A DNA stretch of 64,000 nucleotides from Vibrio kanaloae (GTDB lineage Bacteria; Pseudomonadota; Gammaproteobacteria; Enterobacterales; Vibrionaceae). The notes under the pieces are model-generated. The model had not been told where the DNA came from and ran no database searches. It worked only from the letters and a program-made list of their open reading frames with translations. Below are positions 34,480 to 64,000 of this stretch, piece after piece (within the stretch, counting starts at the first letter, position 1; each line of letters opens with the position of its first letter). Location: the NCBI RefSeq assembly GCF_024347535.1, contig NZ_AP025497.1, positions 868,001 through 932,000 of the forward strand, read 5' to 3'. The position numbers were made by a program, and so were the translations under genes.

Positions 34480-36582
34480 ATGAAATTCTCCCTGCCTTTT
34501 GCGGACAAGTTGCCGAAAATTCCTAACCGTGCTATGCCTGCGATTGGAGCACCAGTTATGGTACTTGCAACGCTTGCTATGGTGGTGTTGCCAATTCCTG
34601 CTTTCTTGTTGGATATGTTCTTCACCTTCAATATTGCCTTGTCTATGGTTGTGCTACTGGTTTCGGTTTATACCCGTAGGCCGTTAGATTTCGCGGCATT
34701 TCCTACCGTTCTTCTGATTGCGACGCTACTTCGATTAGCCTTGAATGTTGCTTCGACACGTGTGGTATTACTCCACGGTCACGAAGGTGGTGACTCCGCT
34801 GGTAACGTTATTGAAGCCTTTGGTAACGTCGTTATAGGCGGTAATTATGCGGTTGGTTTAGTGGTGTTTTTGATTCTGATGATCATCAACTTTATGGTTG
34901 TCACCAAAGGTGCGGGCCGTATCTCGGAAGTAAGTGCACGTTTCACGCTGGATGCTTTGCCTGGCAAACAAATGGCAATTGATGCCGACTTGAATGCGGG
35001 TTTGATCGACCAAGATCAGGCTCGAACCCGACGTTTTGAAGTGACCAAAGAAGCCGACTTCTACGGTTCGATGGACGGTGCGTCTAAGTTTGTTAAAGGC
35101 GATGCTATCGCCGGTATCCTAATCTTATTCATCAACATCATAGGTGGCTTGAGCATTGGTATGGCTCAATTCGACCTTGGTTTTGGTGAAGCTATCGAAA
35201 TCTATACGCTATTGACCATCGGTGATGGTTTGGTTGCACAAATTCCGTCTCTATTGCTGTCTATCGCCGCAGCGATGATGGTAACGCGTCAAAATACCGA
35301 TGAAGATATGGGGCAGCAGCTCGTCTTCCAAATGTTGGATAATCCAAAGGCTTTGATGATCACCGCCGGTATCCTTGGGGTGATGGGTATTGTTCCTGGT
35401 ATGCCGCACTTTTCTTTCTTAAGCTTGACTGCTGTGGCAGGGGCTGGTGCCTACTTTATCGATAAAAAGAACAAGGCAAAGGCTGAAGATACAAACCTGC
35501 CAGCCACCGTCGATGCTAATGGTGACACACCTTCATCGCAAAAAGAGCTCTCATGGGACGATGTTCAACCCGTCGATATTATCGGCTTAGAAGTGGGTTA
35601 CCGCCTGATTCCGTTAGTTGATCGAGATCAAGGTGGTGAACTGCTTGAACGGGTAAAAGGAGTGCGTAAGAAGCTGTCCCAAGACTTCGGTTTTTTGATC
35701 CCCGCTGTACATATTCGCGATAATCTAGAACTGACGCCAAACAGCTACCGAATCACTCTGATGGGAGTCGCGGTTGGCGAGGCCGAGATTAAACCTGATA
35801 TGGAATTGGCGATTAACCCTGGCCAAGTCTATGGAATGATCGAAGGTGAGCCGACCATTGACCCTGCATTTGGTCTCGAGGCCGTGTGGATTCGCGAAGA
35901 GCAGCGCGAGCACGCGCAAGCTTTGGGCTACACGGTTGTGGACTCCTCAACTGTACTGGCGACACACCTTAGTCAACTGTTGACCAATAATGCTTCGCAG
36001 TTAATTGGGCATGAAGAAGTTCAGAATCTACTGGAAATGCTTGGTCGTTCAACGCCTAAGCTGATCGAAGGTTTTGTACCGGATCAACTGCCGCTTGGCG
36101 TGGTTGTGAAAGTGCTTCAAAACCTACTAAATGAAGCCATTCCAATTCGTGATATTCGAACGATAGTCCAAACTTTGTCAGAGTACTCCGGTAAGAGTCA
36201 AGAACCTGACATACTTACAGCGGCTGCTCGTATCTCTTTGAAAAGGCTAATTGTCCAAGAAATCAATGGTATAGAGACAGAGTTACCGGTAATAACCTTA
36301 ATACCAGAATTGGAACAGATCTTGCACCAAACCATGCAAGCATCTGGCGGAGAATCTGCAGGTATTGAGCCTGGTTTAGCGGAGCGCTTACAGACCTCTC
36401 TTAGTCATGCTACACAAGAGCAAGAGTTGAAAGGGGAGCCAGCGGTGTTATTGACCTCTGGTGTATTGCGTTCCACTCTCGCTAAGTTTGTGAAAAACAC
36501 GATCCCAAGCTTGAGAGTGTTATCTTACCAAGAAATACCGGACGAAAAGCAGATACGTATAGTACAAGCTGTTGGTAATTAA
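34480..36582 (+). CDS. flhA: Flagellar export gate protein FlhA
   Basis: Largest export-gate subunit; forms the nonameric ring that receives chaperone-substrate complexes. 700 residues. Eight membrane helices in the first ~330, with FHIPEP loop motifs GRISEVSARFTLDALPGKQMAIDADLNAGLID. The soluble domain includes PAVHIRDNLELTPNSYRITLMGV. The ribosome site is poor. It heads the flhA-flhF-flhG-fliA-che run. Confidence 0.97.
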   Translation: MKFSLPFADKLPKIPNRAMPAIGAPVMVLATLAMVVLPIPAFLLDMFFTFNIALSMVVLLVSVYTRRPLDFAAFPTVLLIATLLRLALNVASTRVVLLHGHEGGDSAGNVIEAFGNVVIGGNYAVGLVVFLILMIINFMVVTKGAGRISEVSARFTLDALPGKQMAIDADLNAGLIDQDQARTRRFEVTKEADFYGSMDGASKFVKGDAIAGILILFINIIGGLSIGMAQFDLGFGEAIEIYTLLTIGDGLVAQIPSLLLSIAAAMMVTRQNTDEDMGQQLVFQMLDNPKALMITAGILGVMGIVPGMPHFSFLSLTAVAGAGAYFIDKKNKAKAEDTNLPATVDANGDTPSSQKELSWDDVQPVDIIGLEVGYRLIPLVDRDQGGELLERVKGVRKKLSQDFGFLIPAVHIRDNLELTPNSYRITLMGVAVGEAEIKPDMELAINPGQVYGMIEGEPTIDPAFGLEAVWIREEQREHAQALGYTVVDSSTVLATHLSQLLTNNASQLIGHEEVQNLLEMLGRSTPKLIEGFVPDQLPLGVVVKVLQNLLNEAIPIRDIRTIVQTLSEYSGKSQEPDILTAAARISLKRLIVQEINGIETELPVITLIPELEQILHQTMQASGGESAGIEPGLAERLQTSLSHATQEQELKGEPAVLLTSGVLRSTLAKFVKNTIPSLRVLSYQEIPDEKQIRIVQAVGN

Positions 36583-53524: not shown

Positions 53525-54744
53525 TGACTCTATTTTGGATTTCTACCATTATCCTTTCGCTAGCGGCAATTCTCTTAATTGTTCTACCCTTCATTAACAA
53601 GAAGGCGAACAACGACGAAATGCTTCGCGACGAGTTGAACAAAGCATTCTATAAAGACCGCCTCGTTGAGTTAGAGGTAGAAGCAGAAGAAGGCCTTGTT
53701 GATAACCAGCAGGAATTGATCGCTGATTTGAAACAGTCTCTGCTTGATGATGTTCCTGCACAAGAAGAGATGAAGAAGACTCAAATCTCTACGCTTGGCG
53801 TTGTTGTACCGTCGATAATTCTGGTTGTAGTTGTGACGTATGGTATGTACTTTAAGTTTGGTGCGCTAGACAAAGTTCAACACTGGCAAGAAGTGAGTTC
53901 GAACCTTCCTGAGTTGTCTAAAAAGTTGATGTCATCAGAAGGTGGCGCGTTAACGGATGATGAACTCGAAGATTTGACGCTAGCGCTTCGTACTCGTCTT
54001 CACTATCAACCTAAAGACTCAACGGGTTGGTTGCTTCTTGGTCGTATTGCACTGGCTAACCGCGATGCTGAAACAGCAAAAGATTCTATGGAACGAGCGT
54101 ATAAGCTTGAGCCTAAGAATGAAGATGTTCAGTTAGGTTTCGCACAAGCACTGATGCTTTCGCCTGATGAAGCCGATCAGAACCAAGCTCGCTTGATTTT
54201 GAGCCGTTTGATTCAAAACGATTACGTTGATCTTCGTGTGTTCTCATTGCTAGCGTTCGATGCATTTGAGCGTCAAGATTACCCAGGTGCTGTGAAGTAC
54301 TGGAGTATCATGCAGCAGATGATTGGTCCTCAAGACAGTCGCTACGAAATGTTGTCACGCAGTATTGAAAGTGCTCAGAAGAAAATGGGCAATGCCATGG
54401 GCGTTGACCAAGGTAAGAGTGTAGCGGTAACGCTTGAGATATCTGGTGAAGTGAATGCTGATCCTAATTCAGTGTTGGTAGTATCAATACACAGAGCGGA
54501 TGGCTCGCCAATGCCGGTTGCTGCGGCTCGTTACCCACTGGGGACTTTCCCTCGTACTGTTGTGCTTGATGATGGTAACAGCATGTTGGAAGGCCAAAAA
54601 TTGTCTAGCCTTGAAACTCTGATGGTTAGAGCTAGGCTTGATACCGATGGTAATGTTTCAACTCGCGATGGTGATTGGTACGGTGAGAGTGAAGTGGTTG
54701 AACTGGGTGCTCCAGTGACCATTGATATCAACAAACAATATTAA
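53524..54744 (+). CDS. ccmI: Cytochrome c maturation protein CcmI (TPR)
   Basis: Chaperone holding apocytochrome c for CcmFH. 406 residues with two N-terminal membrane helices (about 3-23 and 92-110) and a Leu-zipper-like loop. TPR repeats (GWLLLGRIALANRDAETAKDSMERAYKLEP) and a C-terminal periplasmic domain follow. Last gene of the ccm operon, followed by a terminator. Confidence 0.94.
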   Translation: MTLFWISTIILSLAAILLIVLPFINKKANNDEMLRDELNKAFYKDRLVELEVEAEEGLVDNQQELIADLKQSLLDDVPAQEEMKKTQISTLGVVVPSIILVVVVTYGMYFKFGALDKVQHWQEVSSNLPELSKKLMSSEGGALTDDELEDLTLALRTRLHYQPKDSTGWLLLGRIALANRDAETAKDSMERAYKLEPKNEDVQLGFAQALMLSPDEADQNQARLILSRLIQNDYVDLRVFSLLAFDAFERQDYPGAVKYWSIMQQMIGPQDSRYEMLSRSIESAQKKMGNAMGVDQGKSVAVTLEISGEVNADPNSVLVVSIHRADGSPMPVAAARYPLGTFPRTVVLDDGNSMLEGQKLSSLETLMVRARLDTDGNVSTRDGDWYGESEVVELGAPVTIDINKQY

Positions 54745-54813
54745 TCATCACTTTGCATAGGTGTTAGCTATTCCGATTTGTTGATAAACGGTATAGACTT
54801 ACGCAACAATTGA

Positions 54814-54836
54814 GGCCAGCGATTGCTGGCCTTTTT
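54814..54836 (+). terminator. Rho-independent terminator after ccmI
   Basis: GGCCAGC-GATT-GCTGGCC followed by five T. Confidence 0.93.
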
Positions 54837-54869
54837 ATTATTATATGAATTCCTTATGGAAAAGGTGAT

Positions 54870-55655
54870 ATGTCTAGCAGTGTTTTAAGACTCTCGAGTT
54901 TACTTTTTATCGCTAGCTTAACGGTGGGTTGTTCTAGCGCGCCAGATGAAAGCGCTTACGATAATAACCTTGAAACTTCTGAATACGTCGTAGAATCCCA
55001 CCCTAATGATCCTTTTGAAGGGTTCAACAGAGCGATGTGGGATCTCAACTACGAGTATCTAGACCCTTACTTGGTTCGTCCTGTTTCTCTTGCCTATGTT
55101 GATTATACTCCTGTGCCCATTCGCTCTGGTATTTCCAATTTTCTAGCCAACTTAGACGAACCATCAAGCATGGTGAACAACCTCATTATGGGCAATGGTG
55201 AAAAAGCACTCGACCATTTCAATCGTTTTTGGATTAACTCAACGATTGGTTTGTTAGGCTTGATCGATATTGCCAGCGAAGCAGGGATCACTAAGTTTGA
55301 TGACAAATCATTTTCTGATGCGATTGGTCATCATGGAGTAGGAAATGGCCCTTATTTTATGGTGCCAGGTTACGGCCCATTGACGACTCGTGAAGTAACG
55401 GACACCGTCGATGGTTTGTATGTGCCTCTCTCTTTCTTGAACTTCTGGGCGAGCTTGGGCAAGTGGGCATTTGAAGGTATGGAGACTCGGGCTCAATTAG
55501 TTTCTCAAGAAGCCCAATTGGATGACTCTCCGGATCCATACGCATTAACACGTGACGTCTACATTCAACGCCGTGACTTCAAAGCCGAAATCGAACCGGA
55601 AGAAGTCGATCTTGAAGAAGAAGACTTCATCGATGGTTATCTAGAAGATTACTAG
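54870..55655 (+). CDS. mlaA: Outer-membrane lipoprotein MlaA (VacJ)
   Basis: Removes mislocalised phospholipid from the outer leaflet of the outer membrane, passing it to the Mla pathway. 261 residues. A lipoprotein signal ends in TVGC (Cys21). The family signature DPFEGFNRAMWDLNYEYLDPYLVRPVSLAY is followed by GVGNGPYFMVPGYGPLTTRE. The C-terminal tail is very acidic. It has its own position after the ccm terminator; the other mla genes are not in this window. Confidence 0.95.
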   Translation: MSSSVLRLSSLLFIASLTVGCSSAPDESAYDNNLETSEYVVESHPNDPFEGFNRAMWDLNYEYLDPYLVRPVSLAYVDYTPVPIRSGISNFLANLDEPSSMVNNLIMGNGEKALDHFNRFWINSTIGLLGLIDIASEAGITKFDDKSFSDAIGHHGVGNGPYFMVPGYGPLTTREVTDTVDGLYVPLSFLNFWASLGKWAFEGMETRAQLVSQEAQLDDSPDPYALTRDVYIQRRDFKAEIEPEEVDLEEEDFIDGYLEDY

Positions 55656-55682
55656 AAACATGATTTAGAAAATCGATAAAAG

Positions 55683-55718
55683 AAAGGCTCGATGTTGAGA
55701 ACAACATCGAGCCTTTTT
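55683..55718. terminator. Bidirectional terminator between mlaA and fadL
   Basis: Arms GGCTCGATGTT and AACATCGAGCC (11 bp, 6-nt loop) are flanked by A-rich and T-rich sides. The element can therefore end mlaA on the + strand and the fadL gene on the - strand. Confidence 0.92.
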
Positions 55719-55750
55719 AATGCTTATGACTTTAGATTAAGTCAAACAGA

Positions 55751-57073
55751 TTAGAAGCGGTAGTTGGCTTGGATACCCACTAGCCAAACATTACCAGTTG
55801 TTGTACCAACAAATTGACCACCAACGGCTTCAGCAGTATCGTCAGATGCATAGCCACGTGATTCCGTGATTGGAGCATCCTTAGCAATAATGTATGTAAA
55901 GCCAGCATCAAATGACAATTGCTCAGACCATTGGTAACCAGCACCAACACTTAACCAAGTGCGGTCTGTTTCTGGGATAGTAATAGTACGGTTTTTGTCA
56001 CTTACTGCTGAGGTATCGTAAGCAATACCGGTACGTAGCGCTAGCTTAGGATCAATTTGGTAAGTTGCACCTAAAGCAAAGCGGTAGTTATCCTCCCAAT
56101 TTTCGACTTTAACTGTATGGCTGCCAGATGTGCCTAGCTCTGCTTGCAGTTTCTCGAATGAACTCCAATCCGTCCAGTTGAAACTAGCGTGAAGTGCTAA
56201 GGTTTTAGTCAGTTGATGGAAACTTGCGAGTTCTGCTGTTGCAGGAAGTGCTAACATCATATGGCCGTTGGCACGTTGACCTTGTGCCATCTTAAAGCCT
56301 ATCCCCTCAGCGTGACCTTCCAATTTCAGTTCAACCTCAGATTTGTAGGCAAAACCTATACGGTGGTCTTCGTTGATCTGCCACGCTGTACCTACTTGCC
56401 AACCCCAAGCCGTGTCATCACCTTCCATATATTTTAGTGTTGTACCTGCAGGAACGGAGATTGGCATTTTATTTGAGTCTAGTGCGACTGCGTTTTTTGC
56501 TGGTGCAGTCGCACCGAAGCTACCTTCACCCATAACGTAACGAATGCCACCACCAATGCTAACTTGCTCAACAAGTTGATAAGCAAAGTTTAGGTTAGCT
56601 TCTTTAGTGATTACGCTTGCTTCGTTGCCGAAGTGAGAGGCGTTAAAGTCATCACCTAAATTAGTTTCCATGCCATAGTTCGTGCCAAATGCAAGACCAA
56701 TAGCAAACTTTTCGTTGTAACGGTGAGAAATGTAAAGGTTAGGGATAATGGCATCATCTGCGAAATCGTTTGAAGATGCTTGGCTTGTACCTATCGCAGG
56801 GTGAGCGTGGTTTACTTCACCTTTAACATCAATGTTAGGGTTAACGTAGATAGCACCAACAGAAACTTGTGTACCTTCTAGGTAAGTCAACATTGCAGGG
56901 TTGCGCCATTGTGCGTCCGCACCGTCTGCGATTGCAGCTTCCCCCGCGTATGCACGGCCAAGGCCTGTAGCTGAGTATTCTGCTAATTGAAAACCTGCCG
57001 CTTGAGTCACGGTAGAAGTCGAAAGTAGTCCAACTGCCACTGCAGCAGATAGAAGAGTCTTATTCATTTTCAT
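55751..57073 (-). CDS. fadL: FadL-type long-chain fatty acid porin 1
   Basis: Outer-membrane beta-barrel for fatty acid uptake. I start at 57073 (MKMNKTLLSAAVAVG), which places a Sec signal peptide at the N terminus (cleavage at TQA-AGFQL). The frame runs 12 codons further to 57109, without a ribosome site. 440 residues. The mature AGFQLAEYSATGLGRAYAGEAAIADGADAQWRNPA is the FadL hatch signature and the protein ends in Phe, as outer-membrane barrels do. It is paralogous to the next gene. No FadR site was seen upstream. Confidence 0.9.
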   Translation of the reverse strand: MKMNKTLLSAAVAVGLLSTSTVTQAAGFQLAEYSATGLGRAYAGEAAIADGADAQWRNPAMLTYLEGTQVSVGAIYVNPNIDVKGEVNHAHPAIGTSQASSNDFADDAIIPNLYISHRYNEKFAIGLAFGTNYGMETNLGDDFNASHFGNEASVITKEANLNFAYQLVEQVSIGGGIRYVMGEGSFGATAPAKNAVALDSNKMPISVPAGTTLKYMEGDDTAWGWQVGTAWQINEDHRIGFAYKSEVELKLEGHAEGIGFKMAQGQRANGHMMLALPATAELASFHQLTKTLALHASFNWTDWSSFEKLQAELGTSGSHTVKVENWEDNYRFALGATYQIDPKLALRTGIAYDTSAVSDKNRTITIPETDRTWLSVGAGYQWSEQLSFDAGFTYIIAKDAPITESRGYASDDTAEAVGGQFVGTTTGNVWLVGIQANYRF

Positions 57074-57242
57074 TGTGATGTTCGCTGAATCATAAGTATT
57101 TAGTGACATGATTCTACGTTTAGAGTTATTACTTTAAAAACGAAATTCGAATAAAACAGTGTTTTAGGGATTTAATTGTCAAATGTGCCGAATTATTAGG
57201 TAAATAGCCTGAATGTTTCGGCTGTGTTGCGAAATTTGAGCG

Positions 57243-57284
57243 TACAGGTGTAGGCATATTTTGCCTCTGCAGCCTACACCTGTA
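57243..57284. repeat. Long inverted repeat between the two fadL genes
   Basis: TACAGGTGTAGGC (57243-57255) is perfectly complementary to 57272-57284, with 16 nt between the arms. Inside, AGGCA (57252-57256) can instead pair with TGCCT (57262-57266). No T-run on either strand, so it is not a normal terminator. The rest of the 57074-57317 gap is AT-rich and holds the presumed promoter of fadL 1, which I cannot place. Confidence 0.8.
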
Positions 57285-57317
57285 AGCCTAAATCGATGCC
57301 AGTCAGTGGTTTAAGTA

Positions 57318-57347
57318 ACAAAAAAGGGTCGCGTGATGCGACCCTTT
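57318..57347 (-). terminator. Rho-independent terminator of fadL 2
   Basis: Read on the minus strand: AAAGGGTCGC, a 5-nt loop, GCGACCCTTT, then more T. It ends the upstream fadL transcript. Confidence 0.9.
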
Positions 57348-57370
57348 GGATATTTATAACCTAGCTTATA

Positions 57371-58639
57371 TTAGAAGCTGCGGCTGTATTGTAGACCTAG
57401 TAGGATTGCATCAGCGTGTGTTGTCGCGTTGACACCAGTTGAAAGCCCTGTTCCTAACTGTGTGTTTTCTGATACATTTACATCATCACCCATTAAGTAT
57501 GTGAAACCGAAGTCAACATTAGAAACTGTATCAATGTGGTATGTGAAACCTGCAGAGAACCACTGACGATCAGAGTCTGGTACAGAGATAGAAGTTAGAT
57601 CGTCTTGTGCGCTCGTGTCATACATATAACCAGTACGTAGTGTCCAAGTATCGTTTAGGTAGTAAGTACCACCAATTGCGTAGTGCCAACCGTCTTGCCA
57701 TTGGTATTGTTTTGCATACGTTGAACCAAGTGGTGAACCTTGTAGGTTGTCAAAGTCAATCTGATCGAATGCACCCCAACCAATCCACTGTACAGAATAG
57801 TGAACTGCGAATTTAGTATCTTCGATTTTGTGGTAACCAGAGAATTCAGCAATGTCGGGTAGAGGTAGAGTAATTTCCTGCCCTTTGTCATCTTTAGCTG
57901 TAATTTCAGGGCTGTAACGGTACGATAGACCAAAACGGTTGTTTTCATCTAGTTCATACACAGTACCCACGTTAAAGCCTACTGCCCAACCATCAGCTTC
58001 ATCAACATCAACTAACGTTGTTCCAGCTGGGACTAAGCCACCACTAGCGACTCCTAGAGCCGCACTTGTTTCTCTTTTCATCGTGCCTTGGCCGTAAATC
58101 AGGTCTAAACCTGCACCGAAACTCCATTGTTCACTTAGGCGATATGACCCAGCAAGACCAAAGTTAATGCTCTTAACATCAGTTAGGCCGCCGTATTCAG
58201 CTGCAGTGTAGCTGTCATCAAACTCAGTCTTTGTAGCAAAATTTGAATATGCATTCACACCCCAAGCAAATTTATCATTTACTGGGACGATAAGGTGGAT
58301 ATTGGGTGCAATAGAAGTGTCACCGACATCATCAGTATTGGCAACTGGGATTGGGCTGCCGTTAATATTGTATTCAGCATCTTTGACTTCAATCATTGAA
58401 GTAATACTTTCAAAACCAAGAGAAAGCTCAGTTTTATCAAACAGTGCCATTGCTGCAGGGTTACGTGCCATTACTGACGCGTTATCTGCGATTACTGCAT
58501 CACCAGCGAAAGCACGGCCGATGCCGGTTGCTGATTGTGCGTTGATTTGGAAACCTGCTGCCATCGCTTGCGAAGACGCCAGTGTAATTGTTACTGCTAA
58601 AAGAGACTTTTTAAACAGACGCGTGTTGTTGGTAGTCAT
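57371..58639 (-). CDS. fadL: FadL-type long-chain fatty acid porin 2
   Basis: Second outer-membrane fatty acid transporter of 422 residues. Signal peptide cleaves at SQAMA-AGFQI. The hatch signature AGFQINAQSATGIGRAFAGDAVIADNASVMARNPAAM and a Phe C terminus are present. AAGGAATAAATAA provides the ribosome site. Only moderate similarity to fadL 1, so this is an old duplication. A FadR-like operator lies about 90 bp upstream, suggesting repression or control by FadR when fatty acids are scarce. Confidence 0.92.
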   Translation of the reverse strand: MTTNNTRLFKKSLLAVTITLASSQAMAAGFQINAQSATGIGRAFAGDAVIADNASVMARNPAAMALFDKTELSLGFESITSMIEVKDAEYNINGSPIPVANTDDVGDTSIAPNIHLIVPVNDKFAWGVNAYSNFATKTEFDDSYTAAEYGGLTDVKSINFGLAGSYRLSEQWSFGAGLDLIYGQGTMKRETSAALGVASGGLVPAGTTLVDVDEADGWAVGFNVGTVYELDENNRFGLSYRYSPEITAKDDKGQEITLPLPDIAEFSGYHKIEDTKFAVHYSVQWIGWGAFDQIDFDNLQGSPLGSTYAKQYQWQDGWHYAIGGTYYLNDTWTLRTGYMYDTSAQDDLTSISVPDSDRQWFSAGFTYHIDTVSNVDFGFTYLMGDDVNVSENTQLGTGLSTGVNATTHADAILLGLQYSRSF

Positions 58640-58935
58640 TTATTTATTCCTTTATATATCCGCCTCTACAGGGCGATTAATTTGAGCAATTGCTCAATGG
58701 TGGCTGATCCTATTCGCAAGTATACGATATACAAATCCGACCATTGAAAAATTTGAGTGGAAAATTATGGAAATGACGCCTATCTGGCACGAAAATGGTG
58801 AGAAATGCTTATTTTTAGAGTTTTAACTCTAGTGGTATTGGTTCTGTGAATGGTTTGAGGGTTTGTTATAAATAAAGCCCAGCAATATCAAGAGTATAGT
58901 TGCTGGGCCTTTTATTACGGGGCTTTGAGAGCGAA
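58640..58935 (-). promoter_or_regulatory. Upstream region of fadL 2: palindrome and FadR-like site
   Basis: A perfect 16-bp palindrome TTGAGCAATTGCTCAA lies at 58682-58697, about 45 bp before the start codon. A FadR-like operator lies at 58730-58746 (minus strand CAATGGTCGGATTTGTA). The remainder holds a terminator of the upstream gene at 58877-58908 and AT-rich DNA. Confidence 0.6.
58877..58908 (-). terminator. Rho-independent terminator of the DUF3379 gene
   Basis: On the minus strand GCCCAGCAA and TTGCTGGGC pair (9 bp, 14-nt loop), followed by TTTATTTAT. Confidence 0.85.
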
Positions 58936-59664
58936 TTAGCTCATAGGTTTGATCATTTTGGTAAGCTTTTCGGCGATCTTAGAAATGTCCTCACCATTCT
59001 CACCTACAAGGATCAAACTGCTGCCATCCACGGGGGTTACCGAACCGGACATGCCTTTTTCATCAAAGTCGATAGGTTTGTCTGTCGGAATACCGGTTAA
59101 AAACAACGTTACTTTGCCTTTTGCGCCTTGGAAGACCATATGTACCGCGTTGGATTTACCAAAGCCACAGTGGTTTAGGTAATAGACGTGGTAAGGGAAA
59201 GCATCATCAAACTGAAAAGCAAATGGGTTCATTTTTGCGTTGATCTGCTGCGATGTAACCTGTTCATCGATGCTACTAACAAAACTCTTTTCATCAACAA
59301 CGTGCTTCATTGCTGTATCAGCCAAACTTGCTTGTGCGGGTGAAACGAATGCATTGCCCCAGTTGACCTGGCCAACTAATAAACCAGCAACGAATGCCAC
59401 TGAAGCCGCCATCGCCATTGCTCGTCGAGCAAAAGTTGGCCTTACTACTTTGCTTTCTTCGCTTGAGGTCTGATTGAACAGAATACGGTCAGCAAGATCG
59501 TCTGGCACATCTACGTTCATTGCAGCGTGGATCTGTTTATCAAGCGATAGTACATCGTCTAAGAAGTTACTATTGGCTTCGCTATTCGCGGCTGCATCAA
59601 CAATATCTTGTGTACGCTGTTTAGGTTCCGACAATACACGACGACGAAATTCCAAATCATCCAT
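58936..59664 (-). CDS. DUF3379 membrane protein, probable anti-sigma factor
   Basis: 242 residues. The N-terminal cytoplasmic part (about 1-80, acidic, helical) is followed by one membrane helix (RRAMAMAASVAFVAGLLVGQVNWG, about 80-103). A periplasmic domain of about 135 residues follows, with a conserved-looking HCGFGKSNAVHMVF. Its start overlaps the ECF sigma gene end by 8 bp, so the two are translationally coupled, the usual arrangement for sigma/anti-sigma pairs. The anti-sigma role is inferred from this context and topology; I see no ZAS zinc motif at the N terminus. Confidence 0.8.
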   Translation of the reverse strand: MDDLEFRRRVLSEPKQRTQDIVDAAANSEANSNFLDDVLSLDKQIHAAMNVDVPDDLADRILFNQTSSEESKVVRPTFARRAMAMAASVAFVAGLLVGQVNWGNAFVSPAQASLADTAMKHVVDEKSFVSSIDEQVTSQQINAKMNPFAFQFDDAFPYHVYYLNHCGFGKSNAVHMVFQGAKGKVTLFLTGIPTDKPIDFDEKGMSGSVTPVDGSSLILVGENGEDISKIAEKLTKMIKPMS

Positions 59665-60220
59665 TATGTTGCCCCCTTTCTGCCTCTTCTGTATCCAGCA
59701 TCTCTTTCAATTGATTTCGAGCTCTGAATAAACGTGTCATTACCGTGTTTTTGTTGAGATCGAGAATGTCCGCTATCTCATCACCACTAAACCCACCAAT
59801 GACTTGTAAGAAGAGCGGTTCACGGTAGTCAATTTCAAGTTTCATGATCTGAGCTTGCAACCACAGATGTTGATGGTGCGGGTCATCACTGACACTAGCA
59901 TCGTTACCATGATCATCGATATCAACCAGATCAAATTGTTTACGTTCAAAACGTCGAGCGTTCTCGCGTCTCAAGATAGTAATCAGCCAAGATTTAGCAG
60001 CTTTTTCATCTTGTAGGCTATCGAGTGACTTCCATGCACGAAGGCAAGTCTCTTGCACTAAATCCTCGGCAATGCTTTTGTCTTTACATAACCAATAGGC
60101 GTAGCGAAAGAGGTCACGATGATAGGCACGCACGAGTGCTTCGTATTTTCTTTGTTTGTCCATATCAGAGTTGACCGGACGCTTGGCTGTTTTCTTTCCA
60201 AACATTTTTATTATTGACAC
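59657..60220 (-). CDS. ECF-type RNA polymerase sigma factor
   Basis: Extracytoplasmic-function sigma of about 187 residues. GGAGG at 60226-60230 (minus strand) lies 5 bp before a GTG at 60220, so I start there (MSIIKMFGKKTAKRP). An ATG at 60232 would put the ribosome site inside the frame, and an ATG at 60205 is too far. Region 2 is DLFRYAYWLCKDKSIAEDLVQETCLRAWKS and region 4 is LFLQVIGGFSGDEIADILDLNKNTVMTRLFRARNQLKEML. Its regulon is unknown. A CGTATAG/CTATACG palindrome precedes it. It differs from rpoE, which sits with rseABC. Confidence 0.9.
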   Translation of the reverse strand: MSIIKMFGKKTAKRPVNSDMDKQRKYEALVRAYHRDLFRYAYWLCKDKSIAEDLVQETCLRAWKSLDSLQDEKAAKSWLITILRRENARRFERKQFDLVDIDDHGNDASVSDDPHHQHLWLQAQIMKLEIDYREPLFLQVIGGFSGDEIADILDLNKNTVMTRLFRARNQLKEMLDTEEAERGQHNG

Positions 60221-60383
60221 ACGAGCCTCCATAATTGCTCTGCGTATAGCTGTCTCTATACGTTGTGCTTCGTTTTTATATTCTGTTTCGTTTTCAGAGC
60301 GAACGATCGGCAGGAATTCGTAAAATCACATTAAAATTGATCTACTTCAAAATCTAAGGCCTCGAACAAGTTATAGTACACCT

Positions 60384-60547
60384 TGTCGTCTAGTTAGTCA
60401 TTCGTGGCTAGCATGTTGAGCAAGACGACACTTCCTTTTGAAGGCTGACTTTACTTTCTCCTAATCAGGAAACTGATTATTTCAATTGGCGTCAAGTTAA
60501 TTGCTTTATACACATTCCAACCACACAGCTTTGTGTGGTTTTTTTTT
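60384..60547 (+). ncRNA. Candidate small RNA upstream of fadI
   Basis: A strong rho-independent terminator (AACCACACA-GCTT-TGTGTGGTT and at least nine T, 60519-60547) stands on the + strand with no + strand gene before it for 4.8 kb. Upstream are a -10-like TATAGT (60372-60377), an 8-bp stem starting at the predicted first base (TGTCGTCT 60384-60391 with 60423-60430), and a GNRA-loop hairpin AATCAG-GAAA-CTGATT (60463-60478). The likely transcript is about 164 nt. The -35 is weak. An 11-codon frame at 60413-60448 lacks a ribosome site. I cannot match it to a named RNA. Confidence 0.62.
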
Positions 60548-60702
60548 GCCTCAAGAAAACTATTCCCTACAAAGCGATAACAGTATTTGCTTACGCTAGT
60601 TTAGCCTCTTACGACAACCTTTCCCCCTAAAAGATTCGCCTGAATTTGCAGTTATATTTTCAAACAGTGAGATACTCGTATCACGTTTATTTAAACGCTC
60701 GT

Positions 60703-60730
60703 TTGATTTAATTAACAACTTCTTTACAAT
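60703..60730 (+). promoter_or_regulatory. sigma70 promoter of fadIJ
   Basis: TTGATT and TACAAT at 16-bp spacing, predicted start near 60737, about 30 bp before the fadI ATG. Confidence 0.65.
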
Positions 60731-60735
60731 GATTC

Positions 60736-60746
60736 AGGTCAGACCT
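60736..60746 (+). promoter_or_regulatory. FadR operator over the fadI start site
   Basis: AGGTC-A-GACCT is a perfect inverted repeat close to known FadR boxes (TGGTC..GACC cores). It overlaps the predicted transcription start, where binding would repress fadIJ until long-chain acyl-CoA releases FadR. Confidence 0.75.
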
Positions 60747-60766
60747 CTTAACTTTAAGGAGAAACC

Positions 60767-62074
60767 ATGGGCAAACAGGAAGTCAAAACGCGTTCTGGAG
60801 AACGTGTTGCCGTTGTCGCTGGGTTACGAACCCCATTCGCTCGTCAGAGCACAGAATTTAGTCAAGTGCCTGCGGTCGACTTAGGCAAAATGGTTGTGAG
60901 CGAAATGCTTGCAAGAACTGATGTCGACCCTGCGCTTATCGAACAAGTTGTGTTCGGCCAAGTCGTGCAAATGCCAGAAGCGCCGAATATTGCGCGTGAA
61001 ATCGTGTTGGGCACCGGCATGGACATCAATACTGATGCCTACAGTGTCACACGAGCATGTGCGACCAGCTTCCAAGCGGCAGTCAACGTGACCGAAAGCA
61101 TTATGGCTGGCGCAATTGATGTCGGTATTGCGGGCGGTGCGGACTCTTCTTCTGTATTGCCTATCGGTGTTTCGAAAAAGTTAGCGGCAAATCTATTAGC
61201 GCTGAGTAAAACGAAAACTATGGGTCAAAAGCTGAAAATTCTTAAAACGCTTTCCGTAAAAGATTTGATGCCAGTACCACCTGCAGTTGCAGAGTACTCG
61301 ACCGGTTTATCCATGGGACAAACGGCTGAGCAAATGGCTAAGACGCATGGTATTACTCGCGAAGCTCAAGACGCCCTTGCTCACCGTTCTCACTCTTTGG
61401 CTTCTCAGGCATGGAAAGAAGGCAAGATTAAAGGCGAAGTGATGACGGCCTTCCCGGCGCCTTACAAAAAGTATCTAGCGGAAGACAACAACATTCGCCA
61501 CGACTCAACGGTTGAAGGTTACGCCAAGCTGCGCCCTGCATTTGATAGAAAGTACGGCAGTGTAACCGCTGCTAATGCAACGCCGCTGACTGATGGCGGT
61601 GCTGCAGTGATGTTGATGCGCGAAGGTAAAGCGAAGGAGCTAGGCCTAGAAGTACTTGGCTATATTCGTGGTTATGCGTTCTCAGCGATTGGTGTTGAAA
61701 CAGATATGCTGATGGGCCCGACGTATGCGACCTCACAAGTATTGAAGAATACAGGTTTAGATTTGTCAGACTTAACACTGATCGAGATGCACGAAGCATT
61801 CGCTGCCCAAGTTTTGGCTAACGTTAAAATGTTTGCGAGCGATGAGTTTGCACAGAAGAATCTTGGCCGCGATAAAGCGATCGGTGAGATTGATATGGAG
61901 AAGTTCAACGTGCTGGGTAGCTCGATTGCTTACGGACACCCGTTTGCGGCGACTGGCGCGCGCATGATGACTCAAACACTACGTGAACTGAAACGTCGCG
62001 GTGGCGGCTTGGCACTGAACACAGCTTGCGCGGCTGGTGGTTTAGGTGCAGCAATGATCTTGGAGGTAGAATAA
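60767..62074 (+). CDS. fadI: 3-ketoacyl-CoA thiolase FadI
   Basis: Last step of beta-oxidation: thiolytic cleavage of 3-ketoacyl-CoA to acetyl-CoA. 435 residues. Catalytic Cys in [13 protein letters not shown] (about 98), the His in EMHEAFAAQ (about 344), then [16 protein letters not shown] and the C-terminal Cys in [12 protein letters not shown] are all present. AAGGAG is 7 bp upstream. Length and the N terminus ([19 protein letters not shown]) fit FadI, not FadA. Stop overlaps the fadJ start (TAATG). Confidence 0.96.
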
Positions 62075-64000
62075 TGTCTACGACTCTTGATGCAACAACA
62101 GAAAAAGAAACAGTCGCTCAACCAGATTCAACGTCTGCGACTGAATCAACCAAAAAGAAAGCGACAGCATTTACTCTTAATATCGATGAGCAAGATATTG
62201 CTTGGTTAGCGATTGATGTACCAAACGAGAAAATGAACACGCTGCAAGCGGCTTTTGCTGAAGAAATGAAAGCCATCTTCGAGCAGCTAAAAGAAAAGCA
62301 GAGCCGAGTTAAGGGCCTAATCGTTCATTCCCTTAAGCCAGATAACTTTATCGCTGGCGCTGATGTAAGAATGCTTGATGCGTGTAAAACGGCTGACGAA
62401 GCACAGTCTCTAGCTCGCCAAGGGCAGGAGATGTTCCAAACTCTGTCTGCACTACCGTACCCAGTGGTCGCAGCGATTCATGGCCCATGTTTAGGTGGTG
62501 GTTTAGAGCTCGCACTGGCGTGTGATTACCGTGTATGTACCGATTCAGATAAGACTCGTCTTGGCCTGCCAGAAGTTCAACTAGGCCTGTTACCAGGATC
62601 TGGCGGCACACAACGCCTTCCTCGCCTTATCGGTTTGTTACCATCGCTCGACCTAATCCTTACGGGCAAGCAACTGCGCGCTAAGAAAGCGAAATCGCTC
62701 GGTGTTGTGGATGCTTGTGTGCCTGAAACTATCCTGCTTGAAGTCGCTAAAAGTTTTGTTGAAAAGAATACGGGCAGTAAAAAAGGTAAGCGTCTTGCGT
62801 CTAAAAGCCAAGCTTCGACTAAAGAAAAACTGATTTCACGCACGGGCCTAGGTCGTAAGGTGATTTTTGAACAGGCTTCAAAGAAGACCAATCAGAAAAC
62901 ACTCGGCAATTACCCAGCAGCCGATGCGATTCTTGATGTGATTCGTTATGGCTTAGAGAACGGTTTTGACAAAGGCCTTCAGTACGAAGCCAAGCGCTTC
63001 TCTGAACTGGTGATGACGACACAATCTAAAGCTCTTCGTTCTATTTTCTTTGCAACCACAGAAATGAAAAAAGAACATGGTGCAGACGCAGAACCAAAAG
63101 CGGTTAAGCGTGTTGGCGTGCTAGGCGGTGGCCTAATGGGGGCGGGTATTAGCCACGTTAGTGTCGCTAAAGCGAAAGTCCCCGTTCGTATCAAAGACGT
63201 ATCCAATGAAGGTGTGCTGAACGCACTAAATTACAACTATAAGTTGTTCGATAAACAGCGTAAGCGTCGTATTCTGAGCCGAGCTGACCTTGAAAGTAAG
63301 ATGCTTCAACTGTCTGGTGGAATTGATTTTACAAGCTTTAACCACACAGATGTGGTGATTGAAGCGGTATTTGAAGATCTCGACCTTAAGCAGTCGATGG
63401 TTGCGGACATCGAAGCTAATGCCAAGCCAGAGACGATCTTCGCGACCAACACATCTTCGCTACCAATCCATAAGATCGCGGAGAAGGCGAAGCGACCAGA
63501 AAATGTGGTCGGTCTTCACTACTTCAGCCCTGCAGAGAAAATGCCTCTAGTTGAAGTTATCCCTCATGAAACAACCTCAGAAGAGACGATTTCGACGGTG
63601 GTTGCATTAGCGAAGAAGCAAGGCAAAACTCCGATTGTTGTTAAAGATACAGCGGGTTTCTATGTGAACCGTATCCTTGCGCCGTACATGAATGAAGCAG
63701 CACATCTGCTATTGGCAAATGAGCCGATTGAAAAGCTCGACAGCACGTTATTGGACTTCGGTTTCCCGGTTGGCCCAATTACCTTGTTAGATGAGGTAGG
63801 TGTCGATATCGGTGCGAAGATCATTCCGATTTTAGTGAATGAGCTTGGCGATCGTTTCCAAGGCCCTGATGTGTTCGATATTCTTTTGAATGACAACCGT
63901 AAAGGCCGTAAGAGCGGCAAAGGTTTCTACACTTACAAAGGGAAGAAGAAGGAAGTTGATAAGTCAGTTTACAAGCTGCTTAAGCTGCAACCAGATCCTA
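62074..64000 (+). CDS. fadJ: Fatty acid oxidation multifunctional enzyme FadJ (partial, runs off the window)
   Basis: Enoyl-CoA hydratase / 3-hydroxyacyl-CoA dehydrogenase alpha subunit, partner of FadI. ATG at 62074 overlaps the fadI stop; 642 codons are visible and the frame is open at the window end (about 700 expected). The crotonase domain has [16 protein letters not shown] and [17 protein letters not shown]. The dehydrogenase domain has NAD motif [12 protein letters not shown], then [14 protein letters not shown] and [10 protein letters not shown]. About 30 Thr/Ser/Glu/Lys-rich residues precede the usual N terminus ([14 protein letters not shown]), an extension not seen in E. coli FadJ. 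Confidence 0.95.

Follow-up and report, generated by a model that had tools for sequence, protein, structure and literature searches.

Which transcript ends at an intrinsic terminator that no gene on the same strand precedes? The question is raised by an intergenic interval of Vibrio kanaloae, located between a divergent gene for an extracytoplasmic function (ECF) sigma factor and fadI in a stretch of 64,000 nucleotides (nt) (contig NZ_AP025497.1, positions 868,001 to 932,000 of the forward strand; hereafter the window, with positions counted from its first letter). A preliminary description of this DNA, made from the sequence alone, had pointed to the orphan terminator and proposed an independent small RNA (sRNA) of ~160 nt with its own promoter. 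The analysis presented here shows that a real, conserved sRNA gene lies at this place in most vibrios examined, and that it is the ortholog of Vcr043 of V. cholerae. We further propose, as a probable reading, that the product is a trans-acting, Hfq-type sRNA of the Vcr043 kind, activated by FNR at low oxygen and retuning respiration.

The terminator (60519..60547, + strand) is composed of AACCACACAGCTTTGTGTGGTT at 60519-60540 and a nine-T run at 60539-60547, and no + strand gene lies upstream of it, as first described. Such a site is not rare per se, as 5 terminator-like sites were found in 2.5 kb when 2.7 were expected from shuffles (standard deviation 1.7). The interval proposed earlier began at 60372, where a -10 hexamer, TATAGT (60372..60377, +), is indeed present; however, as this position is that of the hexamer itself, the RNA is expected to start near 60385. 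The sRNA gene is thus placed at 60385..60547 (+), both ends being deduced from where the -10 and the T run lie, and the predicted transcript, from G60385 to the end of the T run, measures 163 nt, in agreement with the size first proposed. Upstream of the hexamer, TTGATCTACTTCAA (60337..60350, +) constitutes an FNR-like activator box, which lies just outside the interval first delineated and had not been mentioned in its description. The fold of 60372-60547 reaches -45.4 kcal/mol (z = -3.07), a value equalled by none of 200 shuffles. It comprises a 5' stem-loop (60384..60430, +), in which an outer stem pairs 60384-60390 with 60424-60430 around an inner hairpin, a mostly unpaired invariant core, ACTTCCTTTTGAAGGCTGACTTTACTTTCTCCTAATC (60430..60466, +), which is the likely pairing region, and a predicted small hairpin, AATCAG-GAAA-CTGATT (60463..60478, +). 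The latter corresponds to the GNRA hairpin noted earlier; it exists here, but its GAAA loop is not conserved across genera and varies in Grimontia, Photobacterium and Aliivibrio.

A query covering 60340-60560 matched 34 of 61 genomes. All the matches fall in the genus, where 34 of 37 genomes were matched, counting that of the window itself; the 24 genomes outside the genus gave none. The sigma gene and fadI lie on either side in 33 of these 34 loci. In a 33-locus alignment, the mean identity to the window was 0.97 for the box, 0.98 for the -10, 0.98 for the core (60414-60462) and 0.91 for the terminator, compared with 0.54 for the spacer and 0.41 and 0.40 for the two flanks; L035 and L036, which have the sigma gene and fadI without an RNA match, were aligned and excluded from these means. 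The exact 22-base middle of the core occurs in at least 117 named stretches, which, among the matches listed, are labelled Vibrio, Aliivibrio, Photobacterium, Enterovibrio, Grimontia, Thaumasiovibrio or Vibrionaceae only. Together, the 34 query matches and the 117 core matches listed form the set of 151 loci used below, with some genomes present twice and 132 distinct sequences over 170 nt. The closest relative of window positions 54001-64000 among the matches listed is V. crassostreae (L084), with 93.2% identity over 5.6 kb.

We then asked whether the predicted helices are maintained by compensatory changes. Alignment A1 contains 70 of 128 distinct sequences, a few of them with trimmed ends, and leaves out near-duplicates and the longer types of Photobacterium, Enterovibrio, Grimontia and Thaumasiovibrio. 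Two-sided changes were found at 14 of 33 pairs, and none of 500 shuffles equalled the alignment on a single one of the five measures. When the partners were slid out of register, the proportion of paired cells fell from 98.9% to 46.7% or less. These changes fall in helices 1 and 2 of the 5' stem-loop (10 of 14 pairs) and in helix 5 of the terminator (4 of 10 pairs). Helix 3, in the core, is invariant and hence uninformative, and no pair of helix 4 changes on both sides; the covariation support is confined to the 5' stem-loop and the terminator. At E ≤ 0.01, a covariance model built from the 70 loci, R1, matched 200 of the 227 genomes of the genus, four of them more weakly than 1e-8. In a 394-genome sample of the order, R1 matched 35 genomes. 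The genus accounts for 28 of these and another genus of the family for 2; the 5 remaining matches lie outside the family (E from 8.6e-4 to 8.5e-3) and are taken as chance. Neither plasmid and phage collections (distant blastn, 60330-60550) nor viral contigs (exact 22-mer) gave a match. An Rfam search had also been suggested; across the whole window it returned no family at the gathering threshold and three chance-level matches only at E ≤ 10. A weak resemblance of the 3' half to MicF (RF00033; 21.7 bits, E = 0.57) is likewise attributed to chance, as the gathering threshold of this family is 79.

Does the RNA belong to one of its neighbours? The sigma gene (59657..60232, -; NF009170, 326 bits) and fadI (60767..62074, +; TIGR02446, 855 bits) are each absent from beside it in some loci. 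In 17 of the 151 loci, from seven Aliivibrio, V. metschnikovii and relatives, V. ruber, V. salinus and others, fadL stands directly to the left of the RNA with no sigma gene between, and the RNA is kept; 15 of these loci retain the complete box and two retain its left half. For fadI, the exceptions are three loci that represent two genomes (one with L029 and L163, the other, V. salinus, with L128): no fadI was found within at least 1.5 kb to the right, and here too the RNA is kept. As it persists without the sigma gene or without fadI beside it, the RNA belongs to neither. These data bear directly on two other explanations. The preliminary description had considered an attenuated fadI leader with an 11-codon peptide (60413-60448). 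In such a leader, taken here with or without the peptide, the terminator would stop most transcripts. The RNA does precede fadI on the same strand, there is complementarity between its core and the Shine-Dalgarno region of fadI (31 of 500 shuffles scored as low), and Vcr043 was once listed among sRNAs that might also be 5' untranslated regions (PMC5089854). However, in addition to the loci from which fadI is missing, ~130 bp of unconserved DNA separate the sRNA terminator from the conserved promoter block of fadI itself. The start of fadI lies 219 bases after the T run, close to the distance first given, and the block contains CAGGTCAGACCTC (60735-60747), a box that we take to be FadR-like and that had been recognised at the outset. 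The peptide frame does exist, but its ATG context, ATGTTGAGC, is found in only 73 of 151 loci. The leader peptide and attenuator were rejected on these grounds, and we regard a fadI leader of any kind as extremely improbable. The second explanation makes the RNA a partner or target of the ECF sigma factor with a role in envelope or fatty-acid stress, the functional link suggested earlier. It draws on the divergent arrangement, on the presence of fadL and fadI on either side of the cluster, and on the start sites of the sRNA and the sigma gene in V. cholerae, reported to lie 25 bp apart with overlapping promoters (PMC8545128). The 17 loci that have no room for the sigma gene, 15 with the full box and 2 with its left half, argue against it, as do the published Vcr043 targets, which are electron-transport genes (PMC9732341), so that this link, too, appears very unlikely. 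On the - strand, 57371-60232 carries in series genes for a fadL homologue, a DUF3379 protein and the ECF sigma factor; because it adjoins the sigma gene, the DUF3379 protein is suggested to be an anti-sigma factor.

The identity of the RNA was assigned by position, strand and size. In V. cholerae, the order VC1045 (sigma), Vcr043, VC1046 (fadI) is that found here, the sRNA and the sigma gene are in both cases encoded on opposite strands, and the ~160 nt of Vcr043 on Northern blots (PMC8545128) compare with the 163 nt predicted here for a transcript ending at an intrinsic terminator. The sequence comparison was made with the cholerae relatives V. mimicus (L082) and V. metoecus (L094), both aligned, in which the RNA occupies the same place with a predicted 161 nt. 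Because it is the ortholog of a published sRNA, this is not a new RNA: "unannotated", as it had been called, is fair for the V. kanaloae genome, but the ortholog was already known. The RNA, its size, its Hfq dependence, its processing and its targets have been demonstrated by others, in V. cholerae only, and V. kanaloae presumably behaves alike. The stability of Vcr043 is Hfq-dependent (PMC5089854) and the RNA was captured by Hfq RNA interaction by ligation and sequencing (RIL-seq) (PMC9732341), which, with the U-tail present on the terminator, agrees with the earlier suggestion that the U-run could serve Hfq binding. RNase E-processed intermediates accumulate (PMC7398697), and overexpression of Vcr043 raises an rpoS-lacZ fusion ~3-fold as well as the RpoS protein (PMC8545128). 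Three of the four validated RIL-seq targets (grxA, vc0036 and sdhC) have electron-transport roles, although the RNA was still termed uncharacterized in 2022 (PMC9732341); it is also named in PMC7695739 and PMC9438474. The main texts of PMC8545128, PMC9732341, PMC7398697 and PMC7695739 contain no mention of FNR, and oxygen is not tied to Vcr043 there. In the literature on Vibrio FNR, FnrS and FNR-dependent small RNAs, titles and abstract openings reveal no paper that deals with this RNA in Vibrio; the paper that named it, from 2015, may say more. The V. alginolyticus srvg23535 is a different sRNA, located beside rctB.

The leaders of sdhC and grxA, two of the validated targets, were compared with the core. 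In this genome, the 24-nt core of the window type is complementary to the sdhC region running from the Shine-Dalgarno sequence to the start codon (-17.9 kcal/mol; 13 of 300 shuffles as low). The sdhC leader of V. mimicus gave a comparable figure, 10 of 300, as did that of A. fischeri, a species that has the sRNA (L088), with 15 of 300. In P. phosphoreum the core is complementary to the region of the sdhC start codon, with 0 of 300 shuffles as low. In three Photobacterium loci (L289, L290 and L295), the sdhC start, GTGAAAGTAAAG, is a 10-base perfect complement of the core. With a 52-nt core the signals are weak: 30 of 500 shuffles were as low for sdhC, 104 for grxA and 31 for fadI. The core is also complementary to AGGAGAAA, present in 15 of 21 grxA leaders (a 22nd, L232, was left out). 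Such complementarity would fit repression by blocked ribosome binding. Among 48 chosen Vibrio genomes, the sdhC leader carries AGCAAGCC in 27 of 27 with an R1 match (E ≤ 1.7e-5) versus 1 of 21 with none or a weaker one. This pattern was not used as a sign of co-evolution between sdhC and the sRNA, as, among 11 further leaders of sRNA-carrying genomes, only that of V. mimicus has AGCAAGCC and as 5 of those 21 genomes hold a diverged sRNA (see below).

What signal, then, would control this RNA? The promoter scan listed no sigma-70-type -35/-10 pair here and there is no recognisable -35. The FNR consensus is TTGAT-N4-ATCAA, of which TTGATCTACTTCAA matches 9 of 10 letters. The centre of the box (60343.5) lies at -41.5, the classical position of a class II activator; as the start is predicted, so is this distance. 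Among the 148 loci that extend 145 nt or more upstream, the full box, TTGATCT[AG]NTTCAA, is present in 141 and its left half, TTGATCT, in all 148. In 141 of 141 loci with the full box the -10 hexamer begins exactly 35 nt from the box start, as it does in the window, and reads TATAGT in 125 and TATATT in 16. Two proteins of the genome contain PF00325, one Fnr (NF008365, 510.4 bits) and one CRP. Perfect FNR-type sites of this genome precede homologues of cydA, arcA and ompW (3 of 12 fetched sites), named from profile matches to the first 150 residues only that fall below the curated cut-offs; all three genes are FNR-regulated in E. coli. A perfect TTGAT-N4-ATCAA palindrome, TTGATCGAGATCAA, stands elsewhere in the window, at 35618-35631.

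Several observations weigh against control by FNR at low oxygen or against the respiratory role that goes with it. The right half-site is TTCAA, not ATCAA, in every full box and is worse in the other 7 loci, and one-mismatch FNR sites number 5 in the window versus 4.1 expected by chance. Only 3 of the 12 fetched perfect sites were confirmed beside known FNR-type genes; the remaining ones, named by eye, adjoin sensor-like, LysR-like, zwf-like or unclear genes, or had no frame found. A perfect palindrome, TTGATGAATATCAA, also occurs in the leaders of ribosomal RNA (rRNA) operons, ~240 nt before the 16S rRNA, in 6 of 6 examined (L168, L170, L171, L172, L182 and L183, at position 1501). It is probably unrelated to FNR there, and its presence means that the motif alone does not imply FNR control. 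Given the chance-level motif count, the rRNA leaders and the other genes, the case for FNR is one of conservation and position, not of motif alone. The sdhC duplex has a median of -17.9 in 38 leaders with an R1 match compared with -16.6 in 21 without (p = 0.057). Finally, Vcr043 is reported as detectable in lysogeny broth at all growth phases (PMC8545128), and these Northern blots give no support for strict FNR control.

This last observation would suit another regulator. A Vcr043-ortholog sRNA whose box is read by CRP or a further protein, the signal then not being oxygen, is a possible though distinctly less likely explanation. The position of the box also suits a CRP site, CRP is present in the genome, and the TCTA in the middle of the box recalls the CRP consensus. 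CRP half-sites read TGTGA and TCACA. At the discriminating positions, however, the box has T and A, in line with a left half TTGATCT in 148 of 148 loci and a right half TTCAA in 141 of 148, and counted on the sequence it matches CRP at 7 of 10 letters versus 9 of 10 for FNR.

Returning to the FNR-type site, its persistence was followed in diverged loci. Twenty-nine genomes were re-searched (21 of the 27 without an R1 match and 8 with weaker matches) and 12 loci were inspected. Five genomes (G080, G090, G109, G124 and G125) carry, in the gap between the sigma gene and fadI, an RNA that has diverged strongly, and the box and the 35-nt spacing are intact in all five. The diverged copies (L319, L320, L321, L322 and L324) have in common the fragments TTCC.TTTAG..TGA..T and a different terminator. 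In two other genomes, G119 and G155, the copies are decayed: the box reads TGGATTTATT(T/T)(C/T)AA, the core and the terminator are damaged, and the -10 remains. These decayed copies (L317 and L318) represent natural loss in progress. A match in G015, which does not adjoin fadI, was taken as chance. As a result of the re-searched loci, the count of 200 in 227 genomes is known to include two decayed copies and to omit at least three diverged ones. We lean, somewhat less firmly than for the FNR-activated sRNA itself, towards a family-wide, oxygen-controlled Vibrionaceae RNA that has no sequence kinship with FnrS and in which the FNR site would change at a slower pace than the RNA: one species group would have rewritten the body of the RNA and kept the box and its spacing, and elsewhere box and RNA would decay together.

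FnrS of Enterobacteria is an FNR-controlled sRNA with a family in Rfam. The logic proposed here would be like that of FnrS, with FNR switching on an Hfq-type sRNA acting on aerobic metabolism; the FnrS family was not matched in the window at the Rfam gathering threshold or at E ≤ 10. AniS of Neisseria, an sRNA likened here by its description, is likewise produced at oxygen limitation via FNR, in a different bacterial class. FnrS is cited in PMC11980369, and AniS appears in its reference list as an FNR-controlled, Hfq-dependent sRNA. According to the same paper, published in 2025, the study that showed FNR to be indispensable for the anaerobic reduction of nitrate by V. cholerae did not go further into the transcriptional targets of FNR (PMC11980369). 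In the mechanism that we propose, low oxygen would allow FNR, of which the genome has one copy, to activate the promoter from the box at -41.5; with the help of Hfq, the core of the RNA would then pair with electron-transport and redox mRNAs (grxA, vc0036 and sdhC in V. cholerae) and with rpoS, and respiration would be retuned. An FNR site in the promoter would explain why the known targets lie in respiration. The RNA itself being known, the new part, as far as the papers cited here on Vcr043 show, is the proposed FNR-type control of its promoter.

The sRNA can now be annotated in ~200 genomes of the genus. Vcr043 has validated targets but no signal in the literature cited, and the FNR-type site offers one that can be tested. 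If this proposal is true, the RNA would join oxygen to rpoS and to the switch from aerobic respiration across a family of marine and gut bacteria.
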